Below, one piece after another: positions 1 to 11,720 of a DNA stretch of 30,555 nt. The notes under the pieces are model-generated. The model saw only the letters and a program-made list of their open reading frames with translations, was not told where the DNA came from and made no database searches. The DNA comes from a virus. The DNA is taken from positions 1 through 30,555 of the IMG/VR virus record IMGVR_UViG_3300017744_001974; one strand, written 5' to 3'. Position 1 is the stretch's first letter, and every line of letters begins with the position of its first letter. Made by a program: the position numbers and the translations under genes.

Positions 1-168
1 ACTGTATTAACTCCAATTATAGCAGCTAACTTAGAAGAGGAGCAAATGGTGCTTACAAACTGGATTCTTGCAGCAGTAATAATAAGAAACTTTTACTTGT
101 ATGAAGAGGCTTCAGAATGCAGAGATTTTAATTACCATCATATTACAGGCGTAAATGTATCGTGCTAA
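1..168 (+). CDS. 3' end of an unidentified gene (5' partial)
   Basis: Frame 1 is open from the window edge to TAA at 166-168, giving the last 55 residues of a protein that starts upstream. The visible part has an acidic stretch (LEEEQ), then a hydrophobic helix-like segment (NWILAAVIIRNFYLY), and ends in VNVSC. I recognise no family. Its stop overlaps the GTG start of the cyclase gene by 7 nt, so the two are probably translated from one message by coupling. A lysis or structural role cannot be argued from this fragment. Confidence 0.55.
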   Translation, partial: TVLTPIIAANLEEEQMVLTNWILAAVIIRNFYLYEEASECRDFNYHHITGVNVSC

Positions 169-1946
169 ATAAAGTTATCACAATAGTACTGTTTATGGGA
201 TTGCTTATATGGAATCCTGGTGTCATGCAAAGAGTCGAACTAATTGGTTACGACTACTTAATCATGAATACCGAACCAGTACAGAACGAGAACATTCTGA
301 TAGTTGATCTTGATGAAGATTTTCTACAGACTTATGGCGGATGGCCGTTACCTAGGTCAGTGTTTGGTGACTTAATCACTACTACACAGGCCGTACCAGG
401 TTTTACAATCTTGATGCCAAACCCCGACATTCGTGGTAAAGATTATGATAATTACTTTGCTATGCGAATGCAATACATACCAACAGTCCTTGCTTCAGCA
501 GCATCGACACAAGTAACTGGGACAAACCCTCATGTAGGTACTGCTCAGTTAGGAGAGGACCCATTACCATGGCTATTCGAACTACCAGGAATTTTACCTA
601 CCGCGTCTACGCTGGAGTCAAAAACAAAGGGAATCGGAGTAGTAACCGCTACGCCGGAAATAGACGGGGTTACTCGTCGCATTCCCCTAGTCGTAAACGT
701 GCAGTCAAAACTCTACCCGAGTTTCGCCTTGGAACTCTTAAGAGTCGCCGTAAACGATCCTTCGTACCAGCTAAAAACAACACCAGAAGGTATTGATTGG
801 ATAAGAATCCCAAACTACCCACTGATGAATACAGATGCGAATGGTCGTATCTTTTTAAATTGGAATACGAAGTTTTACAAACAAAGCGGACTGGAGTTTC
901 TTAAGAAACCAATAGAAGCTCCGTTCGTTATATTCGGCACGACTGCAGAGGGTATAACTAACCCAGTGCCGACCCCTGCGGGGGCTAAATACCCACACGA
1001 AATCCAAGCGAACATTCTACACAATCTAATTACAGGAACCGCACCTAGCCAACCAACTTGGGCTACAGGAGCAGAAATCATCGCAACACTACTAGCACTG
1101 ATAATACTTGCTTTTGCATCAAGGTCAGTCTGGCTTTCCGTTCCCGCACTATTACTGATAACTGGAGGAAGTTTATATGGAGCCTGGCATCTATATAAAT
1201 CTTCTTACTTGCTTGACGTTAGTGGAATCGTAATTATATCCGTTCTCTTTTGGAGTATTCATACCTTTCTGAGTTTCCTATCGGAGTATCAACAGAAACT
1301 TCGAATCAAACAACAATTTGGGACATACGTTAGTCCCGACTTAGTAAAAAAATTACAGGACGACCCAACATTACTGAGATTGGGTGGGTTAACTTCACGA
1401 CTCACTTTTCTTTTTTCTGATATACGAGGATTTACCCCGATTTCGGAAAAATACCAAAAGAATCCACAAGGACTTACGAGCCTCATTAATCGTTTCCTTG
1501 ATAATCAGACTGAGATTATTCTCAAGCATGGGGGAACAATAGACAAATATATGGGAGATTGCATCATGGCATTTTGGGGAGCGCCGTGTCCAGACGAGAA
1601 TCATGTCGAAAATGCAACAAAGGCAGCTCTCGAAATGAGAGTGGCATTGGAGGAGTTAAATGAAAAACTCAGAGAAGAAGGCTTGGATGAGATTAATACA
1701 GGAGCGGGAATCAACACCGGGGACTGTGTCGTTGGAAACTTTGGCAGCAGCACTCGCTTTGATTACAGCGTTCTTGGTGATAGCGTCAATTTGGCTGCTA
1801 GACTAGAATCTAGCTGTAAAGAATATGATGCTGACTTAATTATATCTGAGCACAGTTTAGTAGATGGTTATGATTATGAGTTTCTTGACGAGGTAACTGT
1901 AAAAGGTAAGTCAGAACCTGTAAAAATCTATACCATACGAAAATAG
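162..1946 (+). CDS. CHASE2-domain membrane adenylate cyclase (class III)
   Basis: Predicted to make cyclic AMP from ATP at the inner face of the host membrane, under control of an extracytoplasmic CHASE2 sensor. Residues 5-20 are a membrane segment. Residues ~35-300 match CHASE2, with opening motif IVDLDEDFL, GGWPLPR and closing motif HEIQANILHNLITG. Three membrane helices follow (~304-373), then a class III cyclase domain (~410-594). Catalytic residues look complete: metal-binding D420 (FSDIRGFT) and D466 (YMGDCIMAFWG), purine-recognition pair K462/D534 (DYSVLGD), and transition-state N543/R547 (VNLAARLE). The K/D pair favours ATP over GTP. The 594-residue length is normal for bacterial CHASE2 cyclases. 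The GTG start overlaps the preceding stop by 7 nt. G+C is clearly higher than in the phage genes to the right (53% in 601-660 against 27% in 8401-8460, my counts), suggesting acquisition from a bacterium. Family assignment is firm; the role in infection is inference. Confidence 0.92.
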   Translation: MLNKVITIVLFMGLLIWNPGVMQRVELIGYDYLIMNTEPVQNENILIVDLDEDFLQTYGGWPLPRSVFGDLITTTQAVPGFTILMPNPDIRGKDYDNYFAMRMQYIPTVLASAASTQVTGTNPHVGTAQLGEDPLPWLFELPGILPTASTLESKTKGIGVVTATPEIDGVTRRIPLVVNVQSKLYPSFALELLRVAVNDPSYQLKTTPEGIDWIRIPNYPLMNTDANGRIFLNWNTKFYKQSGLEFLKKPIEAPFVIFGTTAEGITNPVPTPAGAKYPHEIQANILHNLITGTAPSQPTWATGAEIIATLLALIILAFASRSVWLSVPALLLITGGSLYGAWHLYKSSYLLDVSGIVIISVLFWSIHTFLSFLSEYQQKLRIKQQFGTYVSPDLVKKLQDDPTLLRLGGLTSRLTFLFSDIRGFTPISEKYQKNPQGLTSLINRFLDNQTEIILKHGGTIDKYMGDCIMAFWGAPCPDENHVENATKAALEMRVALEELNEKLREEGLDEINTGAGINTGDCVVGNFGSSTRFDYSVLGDSVNLAARLESSCKEYDADLIISEHSLVDGYDYEFLDEVTVKGKSEPVKIYTIRK

Positions 1947-1949
1947 TAC

Positions 1950-1978
1950 TTGACATCAGGTTGGTAATTTGATATAAT
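1950..1978 (+). promoter_or_regulatory. Full-consensus sigma70-type promoter
   Basis: A perfect TTGACA (1950-1955), a 17-nt spacer, and a perfect TATAAT (1973-1978) preceded by TGA, which also gives an extended -10 (TGnTATAAT). It lies in the 74-nt gap between the cyclase stop and the next gene. Transcription would start near 1985 and read into the small-gene block. No operator-like repeat overlaps it, so it may be active early or constitutively (inference). Confidence 0.85.
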
Positions 1979-2020
1979 TATCATGTATTTAATACAAAAG
2001 TTAAGAAAAGGGAGTAACAA

Positions 2021-2218
2021 ATGGACGCTGAACAAGTGGCAAACGATCTAGCTAGGCATGAAGCAGTCTGCGCGGAGCGATGGAAAACTGCATTTAACCG
2101 CTTTGACGACATGGATAATAGCTTAAAGCGTGTAGAAACAATACTGATTTCTGCAGCTGGTGGGGTTATTGTCGGAGCAGCAACCGTCATATTTACAATA
2201 TGGAGTATGCACTCATAG
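2021..2218 (+). CDS. Small single-pass membrane protein, XhlA/holin-like
   Basis: A 65-residue protein. Residues 1-38 are charged and probably helical (AEQVANDLARHEAV, then RFDDMDNSLKRVET). Residues ~40-62 are one membrane helix (SAAGGVIVGAATVIFTIW) followed by a very short tail. This amphipathic-helix-plus-one-helix layout is that of XhlA-type haemolysin/holin accessory proteins, but small phage membrane proteins of other roles look similar. The ATG has a good ribosome site (GGGAG, 6 nt upstream) and is the first gene after the strong promoter at 1950-1978. Product class is moderately supported; a lysis function is inference because no endolysin is visible nearby. Confidence 0.75.
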   Translation: MDAEQVANDLARHEAVCAERWKTAFNRFDDMDNSLKRVETILISAAGGVIVGAATVIFTIWSMHS

Positions 2219-2227
2219 GAGAAAACA

Positions 2228-2410
2228 ATGGAATTAGATTATTCTAAAAAAGATATAACAAAAGCACCTAAAATGAAAAAGGTAAAAACAGAAGTACCTG
2301 AAGGTGTAGAACTTTATGAAAAAAGAGGACTATGGCATCTAAAAGGAGATGGAATAGACCACCAAATATTTAAAACTAAACAGGAAGCACTTACATGGCT
2401 AACGAAATAA
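2228..2410 (+). CDS. Hypothetical small protein
   Basis: A 60-residue, Lys-rich protein preceded by AGGAG at the right distance. The second half (ELYEKRGLWHLKGDG, then FKTKQEALTWL) reads like a small beta-beta-alpha domain, but I cannot name a family. It begins 9 nt after the preceding stop, and its end overlaps the start of the next small ORF by 16 nt. It is therefore a middle member of the small-gene operon downstream of the 1950-1978 promoter. Confidence 0.7.
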   Translation: MELDYSKKDITKAPKMKKVKTEVPEGVELYEKRGLWHLKGDGIDHQIFKTKQEALTWLTK

Positions 2411-2553
2411 AAGAAGCCTTGAAAAAGGCAGTGGAGCACTCAGAAGAAAAGAATGAGTCTCCAGAACTTACTAGCAGAATGAAAAGATTACTTGCTAGAA
2501 AGAAAAATTTAAAGAGAAGATCACACAACCCTAATCGTAAAAGAACAAGATGA
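2395..2553 (+). CDS. Small basic hypothetical protein
   Basis: A 52-residue ORF. The N-terminal half is a charged helix (NEIKEALKKAVEHSEEKN). The C-terminal half is very basic (RMKRLLARKKNLKRR, ending NRKRTR), so RNA or DNA binding is plausible. Its ATG lies inside the end of the previous gene, and its stop overlaps the next ATG as ATGA (2550-2553), a usual sign of coupled translation. No family is recognised. Short length limits confidence, but the exact overlaps on both sides support a real gene. Confidence 0.6.
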   Translation: MANEIKEALKKAVEHSEEKNESPELTSRMKRLLARKKNLKRRSHNPNRKRTR

Positions 2554-3053
2554 TCGATAAGGAAAGACTTGCTAAAGAGTATGTCTGGGTTCATGAAAAC
2601 ACTACTACAATGAGTGGTAGAACAACAGTAAAGAACAAAGATATAATTAAGAAAGTTATAGACAGAGTAAATCCTGTCAATGTTTTAGACTTTGGTTGTG
2701 GTAAAGGTTGGCAGTACACTCGACAGAATGTACACGAAGATTGGGGTATACCAATGCCAACACTATACGATCCTTACGTAGCTAAGTATAATAAACTAGC
2801 AGGATATAAATGTAACTTTTTCGATTTAGTACTATGTGTAGATGTGATGGAACACATACTACCAGAAGAAGTCGATAGTGTACTACACTCAATATTCTTT
2901 TTAGGAAACTCTGTGTATTTTCATATTGATACTAAACCAGCAATTAAAAAGTTTAGTGATGGTACTAATTTTCATGTAAGTCTACATAACGAAGAATGGT
3001 GGACTAATAAATTAAATGAGTATGGAACGAATTGGTACGCGGACTTCGAATAA
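2550..3053 (+). CDS. Class I SAM-dependent methyltransferase-like protein
   Basis: A 167-residue protein with the Rossmann-type SAM-binding signature VLDFGCGKG (residues 45-53), a plausible motif II acidic region (LYDPY, ~70) and a motif IV/post-IV region FDLVLCVDVMEH (~92-103), ending in a strand-like HFD/VYFHIDTKPA segment. It resembles the small Methyltransf_23-type proteins found in phages. The substrate is unknown: no target-recognition domain and no DNA-methylase catalytic motif (NPPY or PCQ) is visible, so a DNA methylase is unlikely; a protein or small-molecule target is possible. It starts by a 4-nt ATGA overlap with the preceding basic protein, and its end overlaps the following gene by 38 nt. 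Confidence 0.82.
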   Translation: MIDKERLAKEYVWVHENTTTMSGRTTVKNKDIIKKVIDRVNPVNVLDFGCGKGWQYTRQNVHEDWGIPMPTLYDPYVAKYNKLAGYKCNFFDLVLCVDVMEHILPEEVDSVLHSIFFLGNSVYFHIDTKPAIKKFSDGTNFHVSLHNEEWWTNKLNEYGTNWYADFE

Positions 3054-3204
3054 AAAGTCACATAAAGAAAGATTAAAGATTTGTGAACAGTGTCCAAACT
3101 ATAGTAAGTTTTGGAAAACTTGTAAGATTTGTCACTGTTTTATGCCCCTCAAAACAAAACTACGATGGGCTGAGTGTCCAGACGAGCCACCTCGTTGGAC
3201 TTAG
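3016..3204 (+). CDS. Cys-rich zinc-ribbon-like small protein
   Basis: A 62-residue protein with six cysteines: C23-x2-C26, then C36-x2-C39-x-C41, then C54. The arrangement CEQCPNY, KTCKICHCFMPLKTKL and ECP recalls a small protein family common in marine and T4-like phages (from memory), of unknown function, presumably zinc-binding. The start is uncertain. ATG at 3016 or 3022 gives a 38- or 32-nt overlap with the methyltransferase gene and no clear Shine-Dalgarno; the conserved cysteine part begins only at residue 23. The gene is well supported even if the start is not. Confidence 0.78.
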   Translation: MSMERIGTRTSNKKSHKERLKICEQCPNYSKFWKTCKICHCFMPLKTKLRWAECPDEPPRWT

Positions 3205-3215
3205 GGAGATGAAGT

Positions 3216-3389
3216 ATGCCAAGAGGCAAAGGAACTTACGGCTCTAAAAGAGGCCGACCAAAGAAGAAAGGAAAAGGTAAAAAGAAAAAAGGTATGAGCG
3301 GACTCAAACCTTGTTTATCTGCAGCGCAGAAGAAATTACCAAAAGCTTTACAGTCAGGAATTCGTAAAAGAAACAAACCCTGCAAGTAG
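3216..3389 (+). CDS. Very basic small phage protein
   Basis: A 57-residue ORF with a good ribosome site (AGGGAGATGAAGT before ATG). The N-terminal part is a Gly/Lys/Arg tail (RGKGTYGSKRGRPKKKGKG), and the C-terminal part contains LKPCLSAAQKKLPKALQSGI and ends NKPCK. The strongly positive charge suggests nucleic-acid or anionic-partner binding. The start MPRGKGTYGSK is, from memory, typical of small proteins in marine phages with no assigned role. It is one of six basic proteins in this block. Confidence 0.75.
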   Translation: MPRGKGTYGSKRGRPKKKGKGKKKKGMSGLKPCLSAAQKKLPKALQSGIRKRNKPCK

Positions 3390-3395
3390 TTTACC

Positions 3396-3407
3396 GAGGA
3401 GGTGATC
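3396..3407 (+). promoter_or_regulatory. Exceptionally long Shine-Dalgarno-like sequence
   Basis: AGGAGGTGATC at 3397-3407 is complementary over 11 nt to the 3' end of 16S rRNA, far longer than any other ribosome site in the window. No long ORF starts just after it. Codons that could use it open only mini-ORFs: GTG at 3402 (16 residues, to 3452) or TTG at 3420 (10 residues, same frame). Confidence 0.55.
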
Positions 3408-3447
3408 AACAATTTAGGATTGGATGACCTTATACTAAACGCAAAAG

Positions 3448-3464
3448 CATGATATTATATCATG
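3448..3464. promoter_or_regulatory. 17-bp palindrome, possible operator
   Basis: CATGATATTATATCATG is a perfect 8+1+8 palindrome in the 124-nt gap between two genes. It is the largest intergenic gap of the small-gene block. It could be a dimeric repressor site or a small RNA hairpin. No clear -35/-10 pair with correct spacing overlaps it. Confidence 0.4.
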
Positions 3465-3538
3465 ACACGGAAAAATATCGAGGGGTCTCCAATCCGCCCT
3501 TCTACAAAGAATTATGCAAAAAACACCATATCAAATAG
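3449..3538 (+). CDS. Possible 29-residue mini-ORF
   Basis: ATG at 3449 overlaps the stop of the 16-codon mini-ORF at 3402-3452 (ATGA) and runs to TAG at 3536-3538, overlapping the start of the next gene (3514) by 25 nt. The peptide is polar and aromatic (LYHDTEKYRGVSNPPFYKEL). The nested start/stop chain after the long Shine-Dalgarno suggests a leader peptide or coupling device. It may equally be chance: 29 codons is short and no family is recognised. Confidence 0.3.
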   Translation: MILYHDTEKYRGVSNPPFYKELCKKHHIK

Positions 3539-4089
3539 CAAGAGCATTTTACAACGATAACGCAGTTCCAAATGATAGGGAAGTGCCAGTGTTGTATGGT
3601 GACTTATTCTCTAGAAGAGGAAATACTAGATTCTTCAAAAAAGAAACATGGGAAAAATTAGAAGGACAAAGCAGAACTAACCAACAAGCTATAGGTTTAC
3701 AACCGTTCTGTATCTGGGCTGATGCACATACAATTAGCGTTCGTAATGAAGTAATAACGATCACTCGAGACGCAAATAACAACGCACAGTCATTTCAATT
3801 TGGACATGACACTTTCAATACCATTTGTGTTAAGAATTTAGACGAAGCAAGAAAATTAGAAAATAATGACGGCCTGTTTGGCGGTTTATATGTTGTCGAT
3901 TACAGTTGTAAAAAGCTGTATAGATGCACAGTGAAGATAGAGCATAAAACTCGACTCGAGAGGATCTTAAATACTTATGTTACTGGGTTACCTTGGTTTT
4001 TTAGCCATGGAAACAAAGTGAATAAGGAAGGTCTGTGGAGAGGTCAATTAGACACTTTGCAGGATAATCCAGGTGGCCAAGGCTACTAG
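3514..4089 (+). CDS. Hypothetical 191-residue protein
   Basis: No family recognised. The protein is soluble with mixed charge and no membrane segment. It contains an aromatic C-terminal part (TGLPWFFSHGNKV, then LWRGQLDTLQDNPGGQ) and two central cysteines (YSCKKLYRCT) that could form a pair. The start is the first ATG in an open frame that extends back only to 3466; the upstream AAAGAA is a poor ribosome site, so translation may depend on coupling with the mini-ORF that overlaps it. It lies between the basic protein genes and a small membrane protein. Confidence 0.75.
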   Translation: MQKTPYQIARAFYNDNAVPNDREVPVLYGDLFSRRGNTRFFKKETWEKLEGQSRTNQQAIGLQPFCIWADAHTISVRNEVITITRDANNNAQSFQFGHDTFNTICVKNLDEARKLENNDGLFGGLYVVDYSCKKLYRCTVKIEHKTRLERILNTYVTGLPWFFSHGNKVNKEGLWRGQLDTLQDNPGGQGY

Positions 4090-4110
4090 GACGCGTATAC
4101 ATCGCAAGGA

Positions 4111-4124
4111 GTACTTTTTAGTAC
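4111..4124 (+). other. Small hairpin in leader of next gene
   Basis: GTACTTTTTAGTAC forms a 5-bp stem with a TTTT loop just before the ribosome site (ATAGGAG) of the gene at 4139. It is too weak for a terminator and has no following T-run. It may tune translation. Confidence 0.3.
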
Positions 4125-4138
4125 GATAGGAGATAAGT

Positions 4139-4315
4139 ATGTTAGGATTCTTTGAATGGCTCCAAGCATGGATAGCAGTATTACCAACAATAGTAATGAT
4201 CTGTTCTCTAATAGCAGCTTTAACTCCAACCCCTATAGATGACGGTTGGATGAAGAAAGTCTATAAACTAGTTGACTGGTTTGCCTTAAATGTTGGCAAA
4301 GCGAAAGATAAATAA
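4139..4315 (+). CDS. Small membrane protein, second holin-like candidate
   Basis: A 58-residue ORF preceded by ATAGGAGATAAGT, a good ribosome site. Residues ~8-32 form one hydrophobic helix (WLQAWIAVLPTIVMICSLIA). A Pro-rich turn (TPTPIDDG) and a basic, aromatic amphipathic tail follow (MKKVYKLVDWFALNVGKAKDK). One membrane helix with a positive tail fits phage holins and spanin-like or superinfection-exclusion peptides; none can be chosen from sequence alone. Confidence 0.68.
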   Translation: MLGFFEWLQAWIAVLPTIVMICSLIAALTPTPIDDGWMKKVYKLVDWFALNVGKAKDK

Positions 4316-4328
4316 ACATTTCGGGGGT

Positions 4329-4352
4329 ATAGTGGGCTGAAACGCCCACTAT
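4329..4352 (+). terminator. 9-bp hairpin before the basic-protein block
   Basis: ATAGTGGGC and GCCCACTAT form a perfect 9-bp stem around a TGAAAC loop. It ends 16 nt before the ATG at 4369, with the Shine-Dalgarno GAGGAG just after it. No T-run follows, so it is more likely a processing/stability hairpin or leaky attenuator than a full terminator. Confidence 0.45.
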
Positions 4353-4368
4353 GCATTGAGGAGATTCA

Positions 4369-4566
4369 ATGGCAAGAAAAAGAAGAAAGGCCGCTAAGAA
4401 AAGGCCAGTACCTACAAACCCTACTCTTTATGCAAGAGTAAAAGCACAAGCAAAGAGAAAGTTTAAGGTATACCCATCAGCATATGCTAATGGATGGCTA
4501 GTAAAAACTTACAAAGCCAAAGGCGGAAGGTATCGTATGGGTACTGGACGTAAAAGAAGGAAGTAA
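4369..4566 (+). CDS. Basic small phage protein, NPTLYARVKAQAK type
   Basis: A 65-residue protein starting with a basic tail (ARKRRKAAKKR). A compact segment follows (NPTLYARVKAQAKRKFKVYP, then SAYANGWLVKTYKAKGGRYR) and the end is basic (GRKRRK). The motif 'NP-LYARVK-A-KKF-VYPSAYAN-WLV--YK--GG-Y' recurs, from memory, in small proteins of marine phages and large DNA viruses of unknown function. It is probably nucleic-acid binding (inference from charge). Ribosome site GAGGAG lies upstream. Its stop overlaps the next ATG by 1 nt (TAATG). Confidence 0.85.
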   Translation: MARKRRKAAKKRPVPTNPTLYARVKAQAKRKFKVYPSAYANGWLVKTYKAKGGRYRMGTGRKRRK

Positions 4567-4853
4567 TGGCAAAACCTAAAGGTGGACTAACAAAATGGTT
4601 CAAAGAAGGTTGGGTAGATATTTCTCGTAAGAGAAAAGGAGGAGGACATCCTCCGTGTGGAAGAAAATCCGCACGAAGTAAGGGAGGCTATCCCAAATGC
4701 GTACCAGCTAGTAAAGCTCGAAGAATGACTTCGGCGCAGAAACGATCTGCAGTAACACGCAAGAGGAGAGCAGGTAATCCTGGTGGCAAACCTAGAAACG
4801 TATCAACCTTTGTTAAACGAAAAAGAAAAACAACACGAAGAAGGAGAAGGTAA
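4566..4853 (+). CDS. Basic phage protein, GLTKWFKEGWVDI type
   Basis: A 95-residue protein. Its order of motifs is GLTKWFKEGWVDISRKRKGG, PPCGRKSARSKGGYPKCVPASKA, MTSAQKRSAVTRKRRAGNPG, and an Arg-rich end (TTRRRRR). I recall this as a conserved family in phages and giant viruses (a DUF whose number I will not assert). Two conserved cysteines flank a Lys/Gly loop. Function is unknown; a role in packaging or condensing DNA is plausible from charge. It overlaps the previous gene by 1 nt and is followed directly by the next ATG. Confidence 0.85.
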   Translation: MAKPKGGLTKWFKEGWVDISRKRKGGGHPPCGRKSARSKGGYPKCVPASKARRMTSAQKRSAVTRKRRAGNPGGKPRNVSTFVKRKRKTTRRRRR

Positions 4854-5051
4854 ATGAACAGTCGCACACTAGCTAAAAAGTTTGAAATGACTCAACAGCT
4901 TTCGGCGATTGAAAAAACCGTGGCTACTGTAGTAATAACAAGACGCAGAGCCCTCTCCCAATTAGTAAAAATGAAAAATTACGCAACTATGCAGGAGTGT
5001 AATTTTCGGGATAAGCAAATTAAAAAGCTTATAGGAGAAAGAAATGGCTAG
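4854..5051 (+). CDS. Hypothetical small helical protein
   Basis: A 65-residue, mostly helical protein (KKFEMTQQLSAIEKTVATVV, then RRRALSQLVKMKNYATMQE, then FRDKQIKKLIGERNG), probably a short coiled coil. No family recognised. A good ribosome site, GAAGGAGAAGG, lies within the end of the previous gene. Its end overlaps the next gene by 8 nt, so it is translated as part of the basic-protein cluster. Confidence 0.72.
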   Translation: MNSRTLAKKFEMTQQLSAIEKTVATVVITRRRALSQLVKMKNYATMQECNFRDKQIKKLIGERNG

Positions 5052-5316
5052 AACAGGTTCATTTTTAAGCGGCCCTACTGGTGTACATGGTACTCAGAAG
5101 ATTCGTAAACATAAACTAAAAAGAGGACTAACCAGAGATTTGAATGCAGCAGCAGGAACTTTTGTTAATACAAAAAGCCCGTTGTCTAGCTCAGCAGGAT
5201 TTTATGGTGCAGCTCCAAAGGCAATTGGTCCAAGATTTGGTAAAACACTAAATCCAAAAAGAGCAACCTTTGGCAAAAGGTCAGCAGGAAGAATACTACC
5301 TAGACGAGGAAGATAA
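5044..5316 (+). CDS. Basic Gly/Ser-rich hypothetical protein
   Basis: A 90-residue protein of low complexity rich in Gly, Ser, Lys and Arg. It contains SFLSGPTGVHGTQKIRKHKL and SSSAGFYGAAPKAIGPRFGK, ending ILPRRGR. There is no membrane helix and no cysteine. Probably disordered and nucleic-acid binding (inference). Ribosome site ATAGGAGAAAG precedes ATG; its stop overlaps the next ATG (TAATG). No family recognised. Confidence 0.75.
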   Translation: MARTGSFLSGPTGVHGTQKIRKHKLKRGLTRDLNAAAGTFVNTKSPLSSSAGFYGAAPKAIGPRFGKTLNPKRATFGKRSAGRILPRRGR

Positions 5317-5876
5317 TGTTAAAATACACTGAGAACGCACTATCAAAAGAACGCTGTCAACAGATAATAAACTCTGTTGAAAGCTGGGAAGATGATATAT
5401 ATAAAAGAGATATAAACTTTGATGTTGATGCACAGAACATGACAAAAGATGAGCTGGAAGCAAATACTGTCGTTCTCAAAAAAGGTGGCAGAGGCAGAAG
5501 CGTACAGCAATCTGAATTAAGTTGCTTTGATACTTGGGACGGTTTACCTGTCTACAGAAGTAAAGTAATGAAGTATGAGGAAGGAGATTTTACCAATCCT
5601 CACAGAGATAGTATGTGGATGTGCCAGAGTAATTATTGGAAAGAAGGAACTAACAAAACTGCAAAAGATATTGTTATTATTCCTTTAAATGATGATTATG
5701 AAGGTGGTAATCTTTCACTAGGTAAGAATAAAGAGCAACCTTTAGAACAAAAAGTTGGTCAAGCTATACAGTTTCCACAAGACGGCTTAGAAATAAAAGC
5801 TAAATGGTGGCACGGTGTAGATAAAGTGACCTCAGGGACAAGATACGCACTAGTATTTTGGAATTTTAGAGACTAA
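5316..5876 (+). CDS. 2-oxoglutarate/Fe(II)-dependent oxygenase (prolyl 4-hydroxylase-like)
   Basis: A 186-residue enzyme of the double-stranded beta-helix fold that would hydroxylate a substrate using 2-oxoglutarate and O2. The iron triad is complete: H96-x-D98 (NPHRDS) and H166 (WWHGVDKV). R176 (SGTRYALVFW) is ten residues after the distal histidine, as expected for 2-oxoglutarate binding. The region IIPLNDDYEGGNLSLG (~110-125) matches the 'LN--YEGG-L' strand of P4Hα/PKHD-type enzymes. Such genes are frequent in marine phages, with mostly unknown substrates. It lies between genes for very basic proteins; whether these are its substrates is speculation. Confidence 0.92.
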   Translation: MLKYTENALSKERCQQIINSVESWEDDIYKRDINFDVDAQNMTKDELEANTVVLKKGGRGRSVQQSELSCFDTWDGLPVYRSKVMKYEEGDFTNPHRDSMWMCQSNYWKEGTNKTAKDIVIIPLNDDYEGGNLSLGKNKEQPLEQKVGQAIQFPQDGLEIKAKWWHGVDKVTSGTRYALVFWNFRD

Positions 5877-5877
5877 T

Positions 5878-6168
5878 ATGCCCCGTAAGCGCGACCCAAG
5901 ACTCAAAAGAGCAGGTGTCAGAGGATTCAACAAGCCCAAAAGAACCCCTAGCCACAGAACCAAGTCACACATAGTAGTGGCAAAAGTTGGAAATAAAATT
6001 AAAACTATTCGTTTTGGACAAAAAGGAGCTAAAACAGCAGGGAAACCTAAAGCTGGAGAGTCTCGTAGAATGAAGATGAAGCGTAAGAGTTTTAAGGCTA
6101 GACATAGAAGAAATATTGCCCGAGGCAAGATGTCAGCAGCATACTGGGCAAATAAAGTTAAATGGTAG
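5878..6168 (+). CDS. Basic phage protein, KIKTIRFGQKG type
   Basis: A 96-residue protein starting 1 nt after the oxygenase stop. After a basic N-terminus it has a beta-hairpin-like segment, HIVVAKVGNKIKTIRFGQKG, then a basic helical segment, SFKARHRRNIARGKMSAAYW, ending ANKVKW. From memory this 'VVAKVG-K-KTIRFGQ-G ... SFKARH--NIA-GKMSAAYWANKVKW' pattern is a widespread conserved phage protein near terminase or tail genes, of unknown function. The charge suggests nucleic-acid contact. Confidence 0.87.
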   Translation: MPRKRDPRLKRAGVRGFNKPKRTPSHRTKSHIVVAKVGNKIKTIRFGQKGAKTAGKPKAGESRRMKMKRKSFKARHRRNIARGKMSAAYWANKVKW

Positions 6169-6180
6169 AAAGGAGAAAAT

Positions 6181-6417
6181 ATGGGATTACCCACAACTGA
6201 CGGAAGAAAAGTATGGTTAGATGAAAGTCAAATTCATGCACATAATTTTTTAGCAAAAATGTTAGAGGTAGCAGATAAACGAAACCTCTCATCATCAGAA
6301 AAAAACTTAAAACAGATGTCAGCCTCCTTTTTATACCTTTACGAAAAAGCCAAAGAGGCGGGTCTTCTCGATGACGAAGACGATACATTATTATTTTTCA
6401 ACGAGACAATACATTGA
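6181..6417 (+). CDS. Hypothetical protein in small-terminase position
   Basis: A 78-residue acidic, helical protein (IHAHNFLAKMLEVADKRNL, then MSASFLYLYEKAKEAGLLDD). Ribosome site AAAGGAGAAAAT is strong. It lies directly upstream of the large terminase and overlaps it by 4 nt, the usual place for the small terminase subunit. However, it is short and I see no clear helix-turn-helix, so a TerS call would be positional only. Confidence 0.7.
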   Translation: MGLPTTDGRKVWLDESQIHAHNFLAKMLEVADKRNLSSSEKNLKQMSASFLYLYEKAKEAGLLDDEDDTLLFFNETIH

Positions 6418-7712
6418 TAACCATTAGCAGAAAAGATGTCCTTAGTGATGAACTAATGACATTTGATGAAAGAAAATTTATAAAGTTACCTATTAATGGT
6501 TACATGGACTTACTAGGCGTTCAGCCTAATTCATCACAAACAGCGTTGATCAACGCTATAAACAACCCCAAATATAGATTTGTATGTGCTGCGATTTCTC
6601 GTAGGCAGGGCAAAACTTATATTGCAAATATCATAGGACAATTAATCACATTAGTACCAGGTTCTAATGTTTTACTTATGTCGCCTAACTACTCTTTATC
6701 ACAAATCTCATTTGATTTACAAAGACAACTGATTAAACACTTTGATTTAGAAGTTACTAGAGATAATGCAAAAGATAAAGTTATTGAGCTATCAAATGGC
6801 TCAACAATTCGTATGGGTTCTGTTAACCAAGTAGACTCTGTGGTAGGTAGAAGTTATGATCTCATCATATTTGATGAAGCTGCTCTTGTTGATGGCAGAG
6901 ATGCTTTCAATGTAGCACTAAGACCTACACTAGATAAAGAAAACTCTAAAGCTATATTTATCTCAACTCCACGGGGTAGAAATAATTGGTTTGCAGAGTT
7001 TTGGCATAGAGGATTCAGCGATGAGTTCCCAGAGTGGGCTTCAGTACGAGCAACTTATCACGAAAATCCTAGATTATCACAAACAGATATTGACGAAGCT
7101 AAAAAGACGATGTCAGAAGCTGAATTTAATCAGGAATATATGGCTGACTTCAATGTTTTTGAAGGTCAGGTATGGGCATTTAATCATGAAACACAGATTG
7201 CAGATTTATCCGAACTAGAAACTGGAAGAATGGATATTTTTGCAGGAATGGACGTAGGGTACAAAGATCCTACAGCTTTCTGTGTGATTGCGTATGACTG
7301 GGACGCAGATAAATACTATTTAGTAGACGAATATTTAGATAGTGAACGAACTACTGAACAGCATGCAATAGAAATTAACAAACTTATAATTAAGTGGGAC
7401 ATAGACTACATTTACATAGATTCTGCAGCTCAACAAACAAGATTTGACTTTGCACAAAACTATGATATTAGCACTATTAATGCCAAAAAGTCAGTACTAG
7501 ATGGCATCGGAGCAGTAGCAGGTATAGTAGATAATGACCAACTTTTCGTTCATCAAGGTTGTAAAGAATCATTACTTTGTTTAGACCAATATCAGTGGGA
7601 TCCAAATCCAAATCTATTAAAAGAAAAACCTAAACATAACTATGCGTCTCACATGGCAGACGCGATTCGATATGCACTCTATTCGTTTGAAACAAGTGCC
7701 ACTACCTTTTAA
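6414..7712 (+). CDS. terL: Terminase large subunit
   Basis: The ATP-driven DNA packaging motor and headful/site nuclease. The ATPase part has a Walker A-like SRRQGKT (62-68), a Walker B IIFDEA with D154-E155, and a coupling segment AIFISTPRGR (~175). The RNase H-like nuclease part has D280 (GMDVGYKDPTA), D336 (YIYIDSAA) and D416 (SHMADAIRYAL). A length of 432 residues is normal. The start is TTG at 6414, overlapping the previous stop as TTGA; the next in-frame ATG (residue 15) would still keep both domains, so the start is not certain. Downstream 70 nt hold the second strong promoter. Confidence 0.95.
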   Translation: MITISRKDVLSDELMTFDERKFIKLPINGYMDLLGVQPNSSQTALINAINNPKYRFVCAAISRRQGKTYIANIIGQLITLVPGSNVLLMSPNYSLSQISFDLQRQLIKHFDLEVTRDNAKDKVIELSNGSTIRMGSVNQVDSVVGRSYDLIIFDEAALVDGRDAFNVALRPTLDKENSKAIFISTPRGRNNWFAEFWHRGFSDEFPEWASVRATYHENPRLSQTDIDEAKKTMSEAEFNQEYMADFNVFEGQVWAFNHETQIADLSELETGRMDIFAGMDVGYKDPTAFCVIAYDWDADKYYLVDEYLDSERTTEQHAIEINKLIIKWDIDYIYIDSAAQQTRFDFAQNYDISTINAKKSVLDGIGAVAGIVDNDQLFVHQGCKESLLCLDQYQWDPNPNLLKEKPKHNYASHMADAIRYALYSFETSATTF

Positions 7713-7734
7713 TTATACCTATCAAAAATAGTTC

Positions 7735-7763
7735 TTGACATGAGCTAAAATTTTTGTTACAAT
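7735..7763 (+). promoter_or_regulatory. Strong sigma70-type promoter for virion genes
   Basis: TTGACA (7735-7740), a 17-nt spacer, then TACAAT (7758-7763) with TGT just before it, making an extended -10. It sits in the 71-nt gap between the terminase and the HNH gene and shares the CTTGACAT -35 context with the promoter at 1950. It would drive HNH, portal, capsid and tail genes. Late phage promoters often need an activator; this one looks host-readable without one (inference). Confidence 0.83.
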
Positions 7764-7783
7764 TCTAATATACAAGTAGGTTT

Positions 7784-8158
7784 ATGACTTTAAAAAGAGA
7801 TTTAGTTAAATATGTTCGTGACAAGGCCAAGTCTAAATATAAAAAAGAGACGGAATGTTACATCTGTGGAAGTACAGAGAATCTGGACTTTCATCACTAT
7901 AACGGACTAACTGAATTACTTGAATGGTGGATGAAACAAAAAAATATCACCATTAAGACAGAAGAAGAAATACTAGCACTTCGTGAAGATTTCATAAAAG
8001 AAAACGAAGACGAAGTTTATAACCAAGCTGTTACTTTATGTCATATGCACCACCTGAAACTGCATAACATATATGGAAAACGACCAAAGTTATTAACAGC
8101 AAAGAAACAACAACATTGGGTGGATATACAGAGACAAAAATATGGCATGGTACGATAG
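7784..8158 (+). CDS. HNH-type endonuclease (packaging-associated)
   Basis: A 124-residue protein with a zinc-knuckle pair C25-x2-C28 (CYICGS), the catalytic-type HH at 37-38 (LDFHHYNG), and a second metal pair in C86-H-M-H-H (TLCHMHHLKLHNIYG). This is the beta-beta-alpha-Me (HNH) layout. In HK97-type phages an HNH protein next to the terminase stimulates cleavage during packaging; the position between TerL and portal fits that role, while a free-standing homing nuclease is the alternative. First gene after the strong promoter. Its end overlaps the portal start by 17 nt. The middle (WWMKQKNITIKTEEEILALR) is a helical insert. Confidence 0.85.
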   Translation: MTLKRDLVKYVRDKAKSKYKKETECYICGSTENLDFHHYNGLTELLEWWMKQKNITIKTEEEILALREDFIKENEDEVYNQAVTLCHMHHLKLHNIYGKRPKLLTAKKQQHWVDIQRQKYGMVR

Positions 8159-9353
8159 ATTTTTAGGCAGAGATAAACAGGAAAAAGAAAATCCTGCACA
8201 ATATGTGATTTCCCGTGATGAGGGAATGACTATTGATAGCCGTGAAAATATTATAACTTATCGAAATGCTTACGAATCATTAGAAGTGGTAAATAGAGCG
8301 GTCAACATGATTGTGGATGATTCAGCTGAAGTACCATTTGATGTAGGAGAAAAGATAATAGGTGTACAACCTATAAAGAAAGACATAAGAAGAAGTAGAG
8401 TAGACTTACTACTAAATAAAGAACCAAATCCATTTCAAGATGTAAGCACATTTAAAAGAAATCTTTTGATAGACTTACTGATTGATGGAAATATCTTTGT
8501 TTATTTTGATGGTAGACATCTCTATCATCTTCCAGCAGATCACATGACTATACATAGTGACGAGAATACTTACGTAGAGAAGTATACTTATGACCACAGT
8601 ATAGATTATAGTCCTTCAGAAATTATACACATAAAAGAAAACAGTTTTAACTCTATTTATAGAGGAGTACCTAGACTCAAACCAGCTCTTAGAACTATGC
8701 AGTTACTATCGAGCATGAGAAGATTCCAGGATAACTTCTTCAAGAATGGAGCAGTGCCAGGATTGGTACTGAAATCACCAAACACACTCTCTGAGAAAAT
8801 CAAAGAGAGAATGTTACAGGCTTGGGTTGCAAGATACAATCCACAGTCTGGTGGAAGACGACCATTATTTTTAGATGGTGGTTTAACAGTGGAAAACTTA
8901 ACAGAAGTTAATTTTAAGAACTTAGACTTTCAAGATGGCATCGCCACTAATGAAAAGATAATACTTAAAGCGTTAGGTGTACCACCAATTTTGATGGATA
9001 GCGGTAATAATGCAAATTTACGACCAAACCATAGATTATATTATTTAGAAACCATACTACCAATCACTAACAAGATTAGGTATGCTTTCGAGAGATACTT
9101 CGGTTTCAAACTTGATGAGAATGTGTCTGGAATTCCAGCACTTCAACCAGAGTTAAGAGACCAAGCAAGCTACTATGCTACACTTGTGAACTCAGGTATT
9201 ATGACACCGAATGAAGCAAGGGAGGCATTAAGACTTGAAGAAATCTCAGGATTTGATAAACCAAGAGTTCCTGCGAATATCGCAGGTTCAGCCGCAAATC
9301 CCGAAGAAGGTGGTAGGCCACAAGAGACCCCACCAAGCGAGGAGCAAGAATGA
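8142..9353 (+). CDS. Portal protein (HK97 family)
   Basis: A 403-residue portal forming the dodecameric DNA gate of the head. Family features include the N-terminal YESLEVVNRAVNMIVDDSA core helix (~47-65), the ERYFGFKL stretch near 325, the central FKRNLLIDLLIDGNIFVYFD region, EIIHIKENSFNSIYRGVP, the long FQDNFFKNGAVPGLVL tunnel-helix region, and ALGVPPILMDSGNNANL typical of HK97 portals. The C-terminal tail is Pro/Glu-rich and probably disordered. Length is typical. Weak ribosome site; probably coupled to the HNH gene, which it overlaps. Its stop overlaps the next ATG by 4 nt. Confidence 0.93.
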   Translation: MAWYDRFLGRDKQEKENPAQYVISRDEGMTIDSRENIITYRNAYESLEVVNRAVNMIVDDSAEVPFDVGEKIIGVQPIKKDIRRSRVDLLLNKEPNPFQDVSTFKRNLLIDLLIDGNIFVYFDGRHLYHLPADHMTIHSDENTYVEKYTYDHSIDYSPSEIIHIKENSFNSIYRGVPRLKPALRTMQLLSSMRRFQDNFFKNGAVPGLVLKSPNTLSEKIKERMLQAWVARYNPQSGGRRPLFLDGGLTVENLTEVNFKNLDFQDGIATNEKIILKALGVPPILMDSGNNANLRPNHRLYYLETILPITNKIRYAFERYFGFKLDENVSGIPALQPELRDQASYYATLVNSGIMTPNEAREALRLEEISGFDKPRVPANIAGSAANPEEGGRPQETPPSEEQE

Positions 9354-9628
9354 CAAAAGACATGATGGTAAAGGCTTTATCCGATTTCATAGCCAGCAAA
9401 GGCGTTGAAACTATGGATTTAGTAACCTATAAAAGTTTTGGCAACGATGTACCTGTTAAAGACTTTATGCTTAAAAGAGCATTTGGTTCTTGGAATAGAG
9501 TACTGTCAGTTGTTAAGAAAAGATATCCTGTCCAAGTAGCAGTTGCAAAACCTAAGGTAAAGGAAGTTAAGAAACCTGCACCTAAGAAAGCACCTGTAAA
9601 AAAGGAAGTTAAAGATGTCAAAAAATAA
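9350..9628 (+). CDS. Small protein with homing-endonuclease-associated-repeat-like motif
   Basis: A 92-residue protein. Residues 1-60 (LSDFIASKGVETMDLVTYKS, then LKRAFGSWNRVLSVVKKRYP) resemble the short helical 'homing endonuclease associated repeat' found beside HNH nucleases ('...FGSWN-AL...'). Residues 65-92 are a Lys/Pro-rich tail with repeats of the KPAPKKAPVKK kind, histone H1-like in composition. No nuclease domain is present, so it may be a DNA-binding relic or a head-associated DNA-binding protein. Ribosome site GAGGAG lies inside the portal end; it overlaps the protease-capsid gene by 14 nt. Confidence 0.75.
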   Translation: MTKDMMVKALSDFIASKGVETMDLVTYKSFGNDVPVKDFMLKRAFGSWNRVLSVVKKRYPVQVAVAKPKVKEVKKPAPKKAPVKKEVKDVKK

Positions 9629-11672
9629 CGAAAAGATATATCAATGGACTAGCACTTTTAAATCATTAGGTGAAACTGATGATGGCGGAGTTAATATCAA
9701 AGGGTCTGCAAGTACAAACGGACTAGATAGAGCTGGAGATATTATCGAATCAGAAGCGTGGATGAAAGGCGGATTGGAAAACTATAAAGGTAATCCAATT
9801 ATTCTTTTTAACCATGATTACAATAAACCAATTGGTAGAGCCAGTGGTTTAGAAGTAACCGATAAAGGCTTAGAGATAACTGCAAAGATATCTAAAGCTG
9901 CCGGCGATGTAACTCAATTAGTTAAAGATGGAGTCCTTGGAGCATTTTCTGTTGGTTTCAGATGCAAGGATTCAGAATATATGACTGAAACCGATGGATA
10001 TAAAATAAAAGATGCGGAGCTTTTTGAAGTTTCAGTAGTCTCAGTGCCTTGCAACCAAGGGGCAACCTTTGGATTAGCAAAATCATTTGATTCTATGGAA
10101 GATTACAGAAGCTACCAGAAAGAAATTTTACAGGCTAACTCAACCGCAGCAGCAGACGCTGTTAAAATTGAGCAGCCAAGCGAGGAGAAATCCTCATCAA
10201 CGGAGACTGATATGTCAGAAGAAAGAAAATCTCCTGAAACTTCAATCGACCTTGAAGCATTTGCAAAAAAAGTAGCAGAAGATACTGCGACTAAAATTGC
10301 AATGAAGCAAGCCGAAGCAAAGGCAGCTGAAGTAAAGCAAGTACAAGAGCAGGCTGAAAAGCTAGCTCAAGTAGAAGCTGAAGAAAAAGCTGCTCAAGAA
10401 GCAAAACAGGAAGAAACAAAGACTATAGTGGAAGCAGGTTTAACAGGAGCTGAAAAGCTAATGAACGACCTAGAAACTAGAGTCAATGAAAAGAATGAAG
10501 ATCTGAAAACAGTTGTCGATTCCCTTGAAAAACAATTAGCAGAAAAATCTGAAGAAATCATGAGTATTCGTGATTCTAAAAGACATTTTGCTGATAGACA
10601 AGGAAACGGTAATTGGAAGAAGGAATTCGAAAACGATATTATTGATGCAAAATTTGCTGGTTTAGCTACTGGGAAAGGATGGGACAATGACTACTCAAAA
10701 TCAATTATGCAAAAAGTGAACGAACACTCAGGTGTTCAAGTATCTTCAGCAGACTTTGAGCAAATCGTTTCAACAAATATTGAAAGAGATATTCAAAACG
10801 AGCTAGTCTTAGCGCCTCTATTTAGAGAAATTGCTATGACTTCTGCTAATATGATTATCCCAATCATGCCAGATGCTGGTTATGCTGAATTTGCTTCAGC
10901 TCAAACAGCTTCAGGTAGTTCACCACATGGTAACTTAGCCCAAAGAGGCGACACATTAGGTTCACCTTACGGTGGTGTAGACTTAGCTGAAAGAACACTT
11001 TCAACAGTTAAGTTGATTTCACAATCATACTTAGGTAATGAGACTGAAGAAGATGCAATCATGCCAATACTTCCTTTAATTAGAGAGTCAATGGTAAGAT
11101 CACACGCAAGAAGTATCGAAAATGCTATTTTAGCTGGTAACCACGACAATGGTGTTTATTCATCAGGAGCGTTTGCTGGGCTATTAAATATGGCTGACGG
11201 TGATAACCACGAAACTTCAGACGGTGCTTCTGGATTCGCAGCAACTGATGCAGTTACAGCAGCTGACCTATTAGCCATGAGAAAGAACATGGGTAAATAT
11301 GGTATCAATCCTTCAGAAATTGTTTACATTGTCTCACAAGACGTGTACTACAACTTACTAGAAGATGCTGAGTTCCAAGATGCTAACCTAGTTGGCGACA
11401 TGGCAACAAAACTATCAGGCGAAATCGGACAAGTATTCGGATCAAGAGTAATCATGTGTGATGAATTCGCAACTAAAGCAGCTGGTAAATATGGCGCAAT
11501 CGCTGTATACCCAAGAAACTATGTAATGCCAAGATTAAGAGGTGTTACAATAGAATCTGACTACGAAGTAGCTAATCAAAGAAGAGTCCTAGTGGCTTCT
11601 CAGAGATTAGGATTCACTGACTTAATTGACGGTGCAACTTCTAAGTGGGCATTTGCTTATAAAGGTAGCTAA
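9615..11672 (+). CDS. Prohead protease-scaffold-major capsid protein fusion
   Basis: A single 685-residue ORF joining three functions usually encoded separately. Residues 1-165 are an HK97-type (U35/S78) prohead protease with H67 (FNHDYNKPIG), S112 (GAFSVGF) and E138 (ELFEVSVVSVP). Residues ~166-320 are a long Ala/Glu/Lys helical segment like the HK97 delta domain or scaffold (KVAEDTATKIAMKQAEAKAA and following). Residues ~325-685 are an HK97-fold major capsid protein (PIMPDAGYAEFASA, VRSHARSIENAILAG, AIAVYPRNYVMPRLRGV). The protease would cleave itself and the helical arm from the shell after assembly. An in-frame ATG at 10212 with its own GGAG could make the scaffold-capsid part alone. Ribosome site for the full ORF is AAGGAAG. 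A hairpin follows the stop. Confidence 0.93.
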   Translation: MSKNNEKIYQWTSTFKSLGETDDGGVNIKGSASTNGLDRAGDIIESEAWMKGGLENYKGNPIILFNHDYNKPIGRASGLEVTDKGLEITAKISKAAGDVTQLVKDGVLGAFSVGFRCKDSEYMTETDGYKIKDAELFEVSVVSVPCNQGATFGLAKSFDSMEDYRSYQKEILQANSTAAADAVKIEQPSEEKSSSTETDMSEERKSPETSIDLEAFAKKVAEDTATKIAMKQAEAKAAEVKQVQEQAEKLAQVEAEEKAAQEAKQEETKTIVEAGLTGAEKLMNDLETRVNEKNEDLKTVVDSLEKQLAEKSEEIMSIRDSKRHFADRQGNGNWKKEFENDIIDAKFAGLATGKGWDNDYSKSIMQKVNEHSGVQVSSADFEQIVSTNIERDIQNELVLAPLFREIAMTSANMIIPIMPDAGYAEFASAQTASGSSPHGNLAQRGDTLGSPYGGVDLAERTLSTVKLISQSYLGNETEEDAIMPILPLIRESMVRSHARSIENAILAGNHDNGVYSSGAFAGLLNMADGDNHETSDGASGFAATDAVTAADLLAMRKNMGKYGINPSEIVYIVSQDVYYNLLEDAEFQDANLVGDMATKLSGEIGQVFGSRVIMCDEFATKAAGKYGAIAVYPRNYVMPRLRGVTIESDYEVANQRRVLVASQRLGFTDLIDGATSKWAFAYKGS
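10202..10214 (+). promoter_or_regulatory. Internal ribosome site and in-frame start for capsid part
   Basis: GGAG (10202-10205), 6 nt, then ATG (10212-10214), codon 200 of the 685-residue fusion and in the same frame. The product would be 486 residues: the helical arm plus the major capsid domain, lacking the protease. This is the same idea as lambda C/Nu3 nesting. Confidence 0.55.
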
Positions 11673-11690
11673 TACCTAATTACGGTTTTT

Positions 11691-11712
11691 GGTGGGTTAC
11701 CTATAACCCACC
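11691..11712 (+). terminator. Hairpin after capsid gene
   Basis: GGTGGGTTA and TAACCCACC form a perfect 9-bp stem with a CCTA loop, 19 nt after the capsid stop, followed by ACTTTATT. The T-run is broken, so it is probably a partial terminator or 3'-end stabiliser that gives more capsid message than downstream message. Confidence 0.6.
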
Positions 11713-11720
11713 ACTTTATT

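Follow-up and report, generated by a model that had tools for sequence, protein, structure and literature searches.

A CHASE2-class III adenylate cyclase at the end of a curli–FecR gene cassette in a phage lineage with T5-like head and tail genes

Genes for curli, the product of the type VIII secretion system (T8SS), have been described in several groups of phages. Genes for CsgF, CsgG, CsgA/B, FecR, an adenylate cyclase and a 'histidine kinase' occur as a cassette in Pelagibacter podo- and myophages, transfer of the cassette between these two phage types was proposed, expression was reported from metatranscriptomes, and the cassette is common across marine viral data (PMC9599517). Curli genes are also carried by pelagimyophages (PMC7029224), by a T4-like virus predicted for Bacteroidetes (PMC7198788) and, as csgGF, by temperate sediment viruses (PMC9636769). 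The function of the cassette is disputed in print, with sibling capture, superinfection defence and a lysis pore as the proposals (PMC9599517, PMC9004378, PMC7029224). Here we analyse a 30,555 bp IMG/VR record, IMGVR_UViG_3300017744_001974, which is linear and unclosed (the window, meaning the whole stretch of DNA that was analysed). It encodes a CHASE2-class III adenylate cyclase, and in the relatives of the window this gene closes a cassette of the order csgF–csgG–curlin–FecR–(variable gene)–cyclase. Our preferred interpretation, to which we give an even chance, is that the cyclase provides the output signal of a curli (T8SS) cassette carried by a phage lineage with T5-like head and tail genes, the state of FecR and curli being passed through CHASE2 to cyclic AMP (cAMP) and a host receptor.

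CHASE2 receptors with envelope partners are known from bacteria. Sinorhizobium meliloti CyaD1, CyaD2 and CyaK likewise join CHASE2 to a class III cyclase, and the Sinorhizobium CHASE2 cyclases get envelope input via the outer-membrane beta-barrel NsrA (PMC13001267). Unlike these proteins, the window cyclase is phage-encoded and curli-linked, and no receptor was found in the phage records searched. Clusters of genes for a CHASE2 cyclase, a phosphodiesterase, FecR and TPR proteins occur in Campylobacterota (PMC9239204), and an operon of FecR and a CHASE2-histidine kinase, linked to biofilm, in Burkholderia (PMC5192318). Both systems share with the phage cassette a secreted FecR-domain protein adjoining a CHASE2 receptor, whereas the available parts of these two papers name no curli genes there. 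No phosphodiesterase gene was noticed beside the phage cyclase, in the course of work that included no search aimed at one.

The cyclase as the last gene of the cassette

The window begins inside the gene before the cyclase (Table 1); any part of a cassette upstream of that gene would lie beyond its reach, and the gene order was read in locus L002, the closest relative of the window cyclase locus, on record G001. There, CsgF, CsgG, a curlin-like protein, FecR, a 180-aa protein and the cyclase are encoded in this order on the same strand. Pfam recognized CsgF (E = 3.2e-19), CsgG (E = 3.7e-49) and FecR (E = 2e-11), and the curlin repeat scored below the cut-off (E = 0.032). The 180-aa protein (L002:9465-10007) is the full-length copy of the gene whose end, left of position 162, had been omitted from an earlier reading of this DNA (the initial annotation). 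It has no Pfam match, and its homologue in locus L008 gave a weak match to DUF5658, below the cut-off. Upstream of the L002 cassette we also observed a gene for a NifU_N/IscU-like scaffold (L002:5071-5487) and one for an A-type Fe-S carrier (L002:5534-5851); both were matched by profile in 18 of 80 viral loci, and many of the remaining loci are too short for a verdict.

Two sets of viral loci were compared, the best 80 of at least 599 relatives of the cyclase and the best 80 of at least 568 relatives of CsgG, which leaves distant relatives outside either sample. Only loci with sufficient flanking DNA entered the counts of cassette genes. Upstream of the cyclase, FecR was found in 44/44, curlin in 37/37, csgG in 35/35 and csgF in 30/30 loci, with profiles that were built from L002 and iterated on the same 80 loci and hence are not independent of them. 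The reciprocal search, which started with a CsgG alignment whose first sequence was that of HTVC008M, gave csgF in 76/76, curlin in 58/58, FecR in 45/45 and the cyclase in 32/32 loci around csgG. The two sets have no sampled 60-mer in common.

The T8SS cassette of Pelagibacter/OM43 phages (HTVC008M, Melnitz and HTVC023P-type; PMC9599517, PMC7029224, PMC9004378) has the same order as the window relatives. It is present with an annotated cyclase in the cultured phages HTVC008M and Melnitz-3, the FecR gene of HTVC008M being found by profile, and the window cyclase is homologous over its full length to those of HTVC008M (38.4%) and Melnitz (36.2%). In view of these two phages and the published cassettes, a phage-borne cyclase of this kind is already known, and the T5-like lineage is a further carrier of the published cassette. 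The initial annotation had described the cyclase beside phage structural genes and held cAMP not to be a usual phage product. A reading of the cyclase as an isolated oddity there is not supported: in the relatives it closes the curli/T8SS–FecR cassette, its relatives are common in IMG/VR (at least 599 of 600 matched stretches), and the cassette has been published (PMC9599517). The available text of that paper does not contain the term CHASE2.

Differences from the Pelagibacter/OM43 cassette are nevertheless evident. Those phages are T4-like myophages or podophages, whereas the head and tail genes of the window phage are T5-like; a literature search, with subscription papers and preprints outside its reach, returned no report of a curli cassette in T5-like phages. 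Between FecR and the cyclase the window relatives often have a DUF5658-like gene (30 of 55 loci), replacing a second curlin gene or standing beside it, and a promoter sequence directly after the cyclase likewise sets the window lineage apart (see below). At the place of the published 'histidine kinase' upstream of csgF, L002 has an 87-aa gene with no Pfam kinase match, in a scan that did not cover the open reading frame at 5781-6020.

The cyclase gene is intact, phage-owned and under purifying selection. Pfam, an AlphaFold2 model and an alignment agree with the initial annotation on a sensor domain, four predicted membrane helices and the full set of six catalytic residues. We take D420 and D466 to be the two metal Asp, K462 and D534 the substrate Lys/Asp of the ATP-type pair, and N543 and R547 the transition-state pair. 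The six residues are kept in 78-79 of the 80 viral copies, and the remainder are gaps save one H at 534; K462-D466 fell within the search pattern KYMGDCIM, so that conservation of this stretch is partly built in. Between the window and 10 chosen relatives, the ratio of nonsynonymous to synonymous substitution rates (dN/dS) lay at 0.08-0.19 over the full protein and at 0.03-0.13 within the catalytic domain, with some dS values close to saturation.

The model, built from a 30-sequence alignment (mean pLDDT 89.2, pTM 0.67), runs from a helix at residues 2-17 through an alpha/beta sensor domain and helices 301-319, 323-346 and 354-386 to the cyclase domain. Together with Pfam this gives the architecture of a CHASE2 receptor, with one N-terminal and three C-terminal membrane helices and the CHASE2 domain predicted to lie in the periplasm. 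The Pfam limits of CHASE2 take in parts of membrane helices 1 and 2, and by hydropathy alone the third helix stays mostly below the 1.6 threshold along its length. A PHROG family of unassigned function, phrog_35576, covers residues 4-593 (E = 1.6e-160), which indicates that phage copies of the cyclase had already been clustered. The best viral structure match of the model (TM-score 0.93 by query length) was A0A6J5RWB7, which comes from an uncultured Caudovirales phage. In one search of solved structures all 47 matches start at residue 370 or later, i.e. at the catalytic end, and the matches listed from Foldseek (50 of 799) name no CHASE2 cyclase. Solved relatives of the catalytic domain are, among others, 3r5g (adenylyl cyclase CyaB), 6fht and 2w01, whose title is guanylyl cyclase Cya2. 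As a guanylyl cyclase is among the nearest solved structures, the assignment of ATP as substrate rests on the residues, and by these the window protein is a predicted maker of cAMP.

A quick tree with 65 rows, calculated without bootstrap and with the root placed on the cellular rows, separates 33 phage or phage-like rows from 32 cellular CHASE2 cyclases by a branch with SH-aLRT 100, and the window cyclase falls into the phage clade. The rows were the window, 25 of the 80 viral loci, two named myophages, five phage-like loci from metagenome-assembled genomes (MAGs) and 32 of 75 other loci from genome_contigs. Three Bacteroidota MAG contigs (L083, L084 and L127), which carry the cassette or the cyclase together with further myophage-type genes, also stand in the phage clade; they are probably mis-binned phage contigs.

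Curli–FecR types beside the cyclase

Distances were compared for the 25 of 80 loci with complete csgG, curlin, FecR and TerL genes. By mirror-tree, CsgG was strongly correlated with FecR (r = 0.91) and curlin (r = 0.82). The values for CHASE2 (r = 0.21) and the catalytic domain (r = 0.04) leave co-evolution of the whole cassette with the cyclase unsupported. Partial Mantel tests were run on uncorrected distances, from which the earlier mirror-tree figures differ slightly. They gave r = 0.92 for CsgG and FecR, r = 0.34 (p = 0.0005) for FecR and CHASE2 with catalytic-domain and TerL distances removed, and r = 0.13 (p = 0.03) for FecR and the catalytic domain. In this second comparison the catalytic domain tracks TerL (r = 0.54) and hardly the curli block.

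Catalytic domains more than 88% identical were found in 51 of 300 locus pairs, in 31 of which CsgG was less than 55% identical. In the pair L002/L028, identity drops from 95% in the catalytic domain through 64% in CHASE2 to 46% in CsgG, 44% in FecR and 32% in curlin. Highly similar catalytic domains thus stand beside divergent CsgG, so that curli–FecR types appear to have been exchanged beside a near-constant catalytic domain, with the CHASE2 half intermediate. The finding of divergent curli–FecR types next to near-constant catalytic domains is new here.

A proposed signalling role and its alternatives

According to our preferred interpretation, CsgG and CsgF would form an outer-membrane channel for curlin during infection, and the secreted FecR-domain protein would sit in the periplasm and meet the CHASE2 domain of the cyclase. 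The state of curli and CsgG would alter FecR, which would report to CHASE2, and the cyclase would respond by making cAMP in the cytoplasm. Acting via a CRP-type receptor of the host, cAMP would then shift transcription in the infected cell, most likely at surface and adhesion traits that accompany curli, such as aggregation and the exclusion of other phages. From analogy with the bacterial FecR/CHASE2 gene pairs and NsrA, we infer a signalling link between FecR and CHASE2 (PMC9239204, PMC5192318, PMC13001267). The constant company of the cassette genes in both sets of loci, the same order in the cultured phages, the kept catalytic residues, the low dN/dS and the correlation of FecR with CHASE2 distances count in favour of the interpretation. 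The initial annotation had suggested that CHASE2 could sense an external ligand. A periplasmic sensor is plausible, and FecR or the curli proteins of the cassette itself would be a likelier input than a free external ligand.

Several observations weigh against this interpretation. FecR correlates with TerL (r = 0.34, p = 0.0005) as strongly as with CHASE2, and map distance alone could give the gradient between FecR and CHASE2, since of the two cyclase domains CHASE2 is the one that lies closer to FecR. CsgG, FecR and curlin have a partly different history from the cyclase, which argues against strict one-to-one co-adaptation. Among 80 CHASE2-cyclase loci from genome_contigs, a match to a FecR profile iterated on the open reading frames of these loci, by profile alone, lay near the cyclase in only 8 of 58 with enough flank, and FecR beside a CHASE2 cyclase is not upheld as a general bacterial rule. 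Two of the eight (L082 and L127) are curli cassettes in the phage clade; csgG/csgF profiles matched three of the 80 loci, namely these two and L083, whose flank was too short to enter the FecR count, and all three belong to the phage clade. The Melnitz-3 cyclase (L163:7971-10022) has Ser at both 534 and 543, besides a C-terminal extension, and its activity may therefore be lost or altered, though the gene is retained. In addition, the Melnitz authors observed no clumping in culture (PMC9004378).

The receiving end of the signal adds two further points of this kind. No cyclic-nucleotide-binding protein (PF00027) was found in the window or in 17 records of relatives (two named phages annotated as complete and 15 linear IMG/VR records, possibly fragments); the control search was positive for 10 of 14 genomes. 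Within the scope of these records, which are mostly fragments, a phage-encoded cAMP receptor is rejected, and the receptor would be the host's. Sites of the E. coli CRP type with up to two mismatches are not enriched in the window (9 found, 15.95 expected), which leads us to discard control of the phage promoters by an E. coli-type CRP. Both results speak against a use of cAMP inside phage regulation.

A more far-reaching form of the interpretation is that the cassette is a complete envelope-to-cytoplasm device. A swappable outer part of CsgF/CsgG, curlin and FecR would be mounted on a near-constant cAMP output, with CHASE2 partly following the FecR type, and the infected cell would sense contact, siblings or rival phages via phage-made curli and answer with cAMP. 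We offer this tentatively, as a possibility that we rate well below an even chance. We know of no phage shown to sense the outside in this way.

The cyclase might instead, as in the main idea of the initial annotation, raise cAMP generally and reset the catabolism of the host for phage production, the curli genes being mere neighbours; that annotation also named a bias between lysis and lysogeny as a possible effect. That the catalytic residues are intact and the catalytic domain is under strong purifying selection is consistent with general host reprogramming, as is a catalytic domain that follows the phage backbone and not the curli block. Within the best 80 loci of each set, however, the cyclase never occurs without curli–FecR genes where upstream DNA suffices, nor csgG without the cyclase where downstream DNA suffices, and a stand-alone enzyme need not remain the last gene of a curli block. 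We therefore consider general host reprogramming unlikely.

A role in lysis timing, in which CsgG/CsgF would serve as a pore in the envelope and the CHASE2 cyclase would respond to changes there, would extend the pinholin/secretin function that the Melnitz authors proposed from gene neighbours and a modelled pore (PMC9004378). In T5-like relatives the cassette is flanked by small proteins in which a hydrophobic stretch is visible by eye, namely a 65-aa protein downstream in 73 of 78 relatives and the 87-aa protein upstream in L002, and none of these flanking genes has a holin match in Pfam or NCBIfam. Curlin-like proteins, needless for a lysis pore, are kept with the pore in both sets. Furthermore, CsgG, curlin and FecR occur as divergent, swapped types, which argues for a surface-exposed role over a simple lysis pore. 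On balance, lysis timing seems to us rather improbable.

Cyclic nucleotides might also serve counter-defence or competition, the cyclase flooding or mimicking a defence that signals by nucleotides, for example Pycsar, or taking part in superinfection exclusion. PADLOC profiles for Pycsar cyclases indeed match the catalytic domain, best PDLC00734 (E = 1.5e-29), yet this match spans only residues 413-550 of the class III fold that is common to both enzymes, and the Pycsar reading was rejected on this ground. In contrast to PycC, the window cyclase has the ATP-type pair and a CHASE2 domain and comes without a PF00027 protein in the records searched; Pycsar cyclases stand beside a cyclic-nucleotide-binding effector, whereas the neighbours here are curli/FecR and phage genes. 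To our knowledge neither CHASE2 nor curli genes are Pycsar parts, and we regard such a function as very improbable.

Phage context and meaning of the arrangement

The G+C content is 0.40-0.43 with a GC skew near 0 left of about position 2000 and mostly 0.33-0.41 with positive skew over the next 20 kb, which would fit a host flank or an assembly chimera at the left end of this linear, unclosed record; G+C of 0.42-0.43 is seen again at the right end. This explanation has a practically negligible probability and is ruled out by the independent record G001 (64,873 bp), which is 99.91% identical to window positions 2-13351 (13,350 bp) across the junction, by the promoter sequence found at the same place in most relatives and by the presence of a TerL relative in 76 of 80 viral loci, with no more than 1,897 nt of downstream DNA in each of the four loci that lack one. 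The left region is hence phage DNA, as the initial annotation had assumed, and the relatives of the cyclase likewise lie next to phage genes.

Directly after the cyclase, the window has its sole zero-mismatch match to TTGACA-17-TATAAT (Table 1). In a set of 80 sequences, the window and 79 loci (L060 was dropped for too little DNA), some of them near copies of each other, TTGAC[AT]-17-TATAAT begins exactly 3 nt past the stop in 74; in the remaining six a looser pattern finds a comparable site 10-311 nt downstream. When the gaps behind the cyclase were scored with a spacing penalty, 68 of 74 reached 10 of 12 matches compared with 1.2 expected from shuffles; the six low-scoring ones were 3-nt gaps caused by a longer gene call. 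This position of the promoter sequence suggests that the cyclase is probably the last gene of its transcription unit and that a sigma-70-type promoter opens the next one. The promoter at stop+3 is a new point of this analysis. A further sigma-70-type site with a 17-nt spacer was observed 0.7-3.1 kb upstream of csgF (L002:4384 and others) in 17/17 hand-picked loci, with 12 of 12 positions matched in 14 of them and 11 of 12 in L008, L045 and L055, counted without a shuffle control. The cassette may form one unit between two phage promoters.

The initial annotation was also right about the 74-nt gap between the cyclase stop and the next gene on the same strand. More than 400 nt of downstream DNA are present in 78 of the 80 relatives, and the 73 of these with a homologue of the 65-aa gene have it within 600 nt. 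The 65-aa protein matched phrog_38642 (function unassigned) weakly (E = 4.9e-5) and had no match in Pfam or NCBIfam. The genes beyond the promoter lead to TerL, portal and capsid genes.

Table 1. Features at the left end of the window (nucleotide positions)
Feature	Position	Strand	Description
3' end of upstream gene, small membrane protein	1..168	+	stop 166-168; 7-nt overlap with cyclase start
CHASE2-class III adenylate cyclase	162..1946	+	594 aa, GTG start; open frame, Pfam, PHROG, AlphaFold2 model
CHASE2 sensor domain	183..1106	+	residues 8-315; PF05226, E = 4.8e-32; model
Three C-terminal membrane helices	1062..1319	+	residues 301-386; last runs into linker helix; model and hydropathy
Cyclase catalytic domain	1398..1937	+	residues 413-592; Guanylate_cyc PF00211, E = 9e-21; holds D420, K462, D466, D534, N543, R547
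Consensus sigma-70-type promoter sequence TTGACA-17-TATAAT	1950..1978	+	3 nt past cyclase stop; aims into downstream phage block
Small protein, 65 aa	2021..2218	+	first gene past promoter; hydrophobic C-terminal stretch (by eye)

For the phage itself, proteins were compared with a library of 50,697 phage records. TerL is 47.9% identical to that of phage My1, its top matches including My1, DU_PP_V and Slocum, which we take to be T5-like phages. The same top phages were matched by the portal (about 40%), the major tail protein (about 32%) and the tape measure protein (31-33% over 19-22% of its length). All of these genes are thus present in the window in T5-type form; judged by these similarities the head and tail genes of the phage are T5-like, from which we claim no family membership, and it is probably a long-tailed phage (siphovirus shape) of a further kind. 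The records matched by TerL also include 28 from Pelagibacter phages. Megablast of window positions 1-25000 against the 50,697 records gave no match. T5-like genomes are about 110-120 kb long; the records of the three longest relatives are linear and, possibly incomplete, measure 64.9, 75.5 and 75.6 kb. The lineage is probably marine, a habitat that we infer. A SAR11 host, considered via HTVC008M, was not assigned to the window lineage.

Further genes were noted downstream. They include a class I methyltransferase-like gene (2550-3053), a 2OG-Fe(II) oxygenase-like gene (5316-5876) and, before the terminase gene, a run of very small Lys/Arg-rich proteins (3216-3389, 4369-4853, 5878-6168) with a DUF5872 match at 4369-4566. 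A small protein encoded between TerL and portal (7784-8158) has a Cys/His pattern that by eye resembles an HNH endonuclease. An open frame of at least 2426 aa (23277-30554) runs off the right end of the window, and its product is perhaps a giant tail or receptor-binding protein.

The interest of the locus lies chiefly in the arrangement of a constant cyclase with exchangeable curli genes, and cultured phages carry the same cassette. With a cyclase that keeps its place and an intact active site beside a curli–FecR part that appears to be swapped, the disputed function of phage curli becomes directly testable. If true, phage-carried cAMP signalling would give a phage the means to read the exterior of its host during infection.

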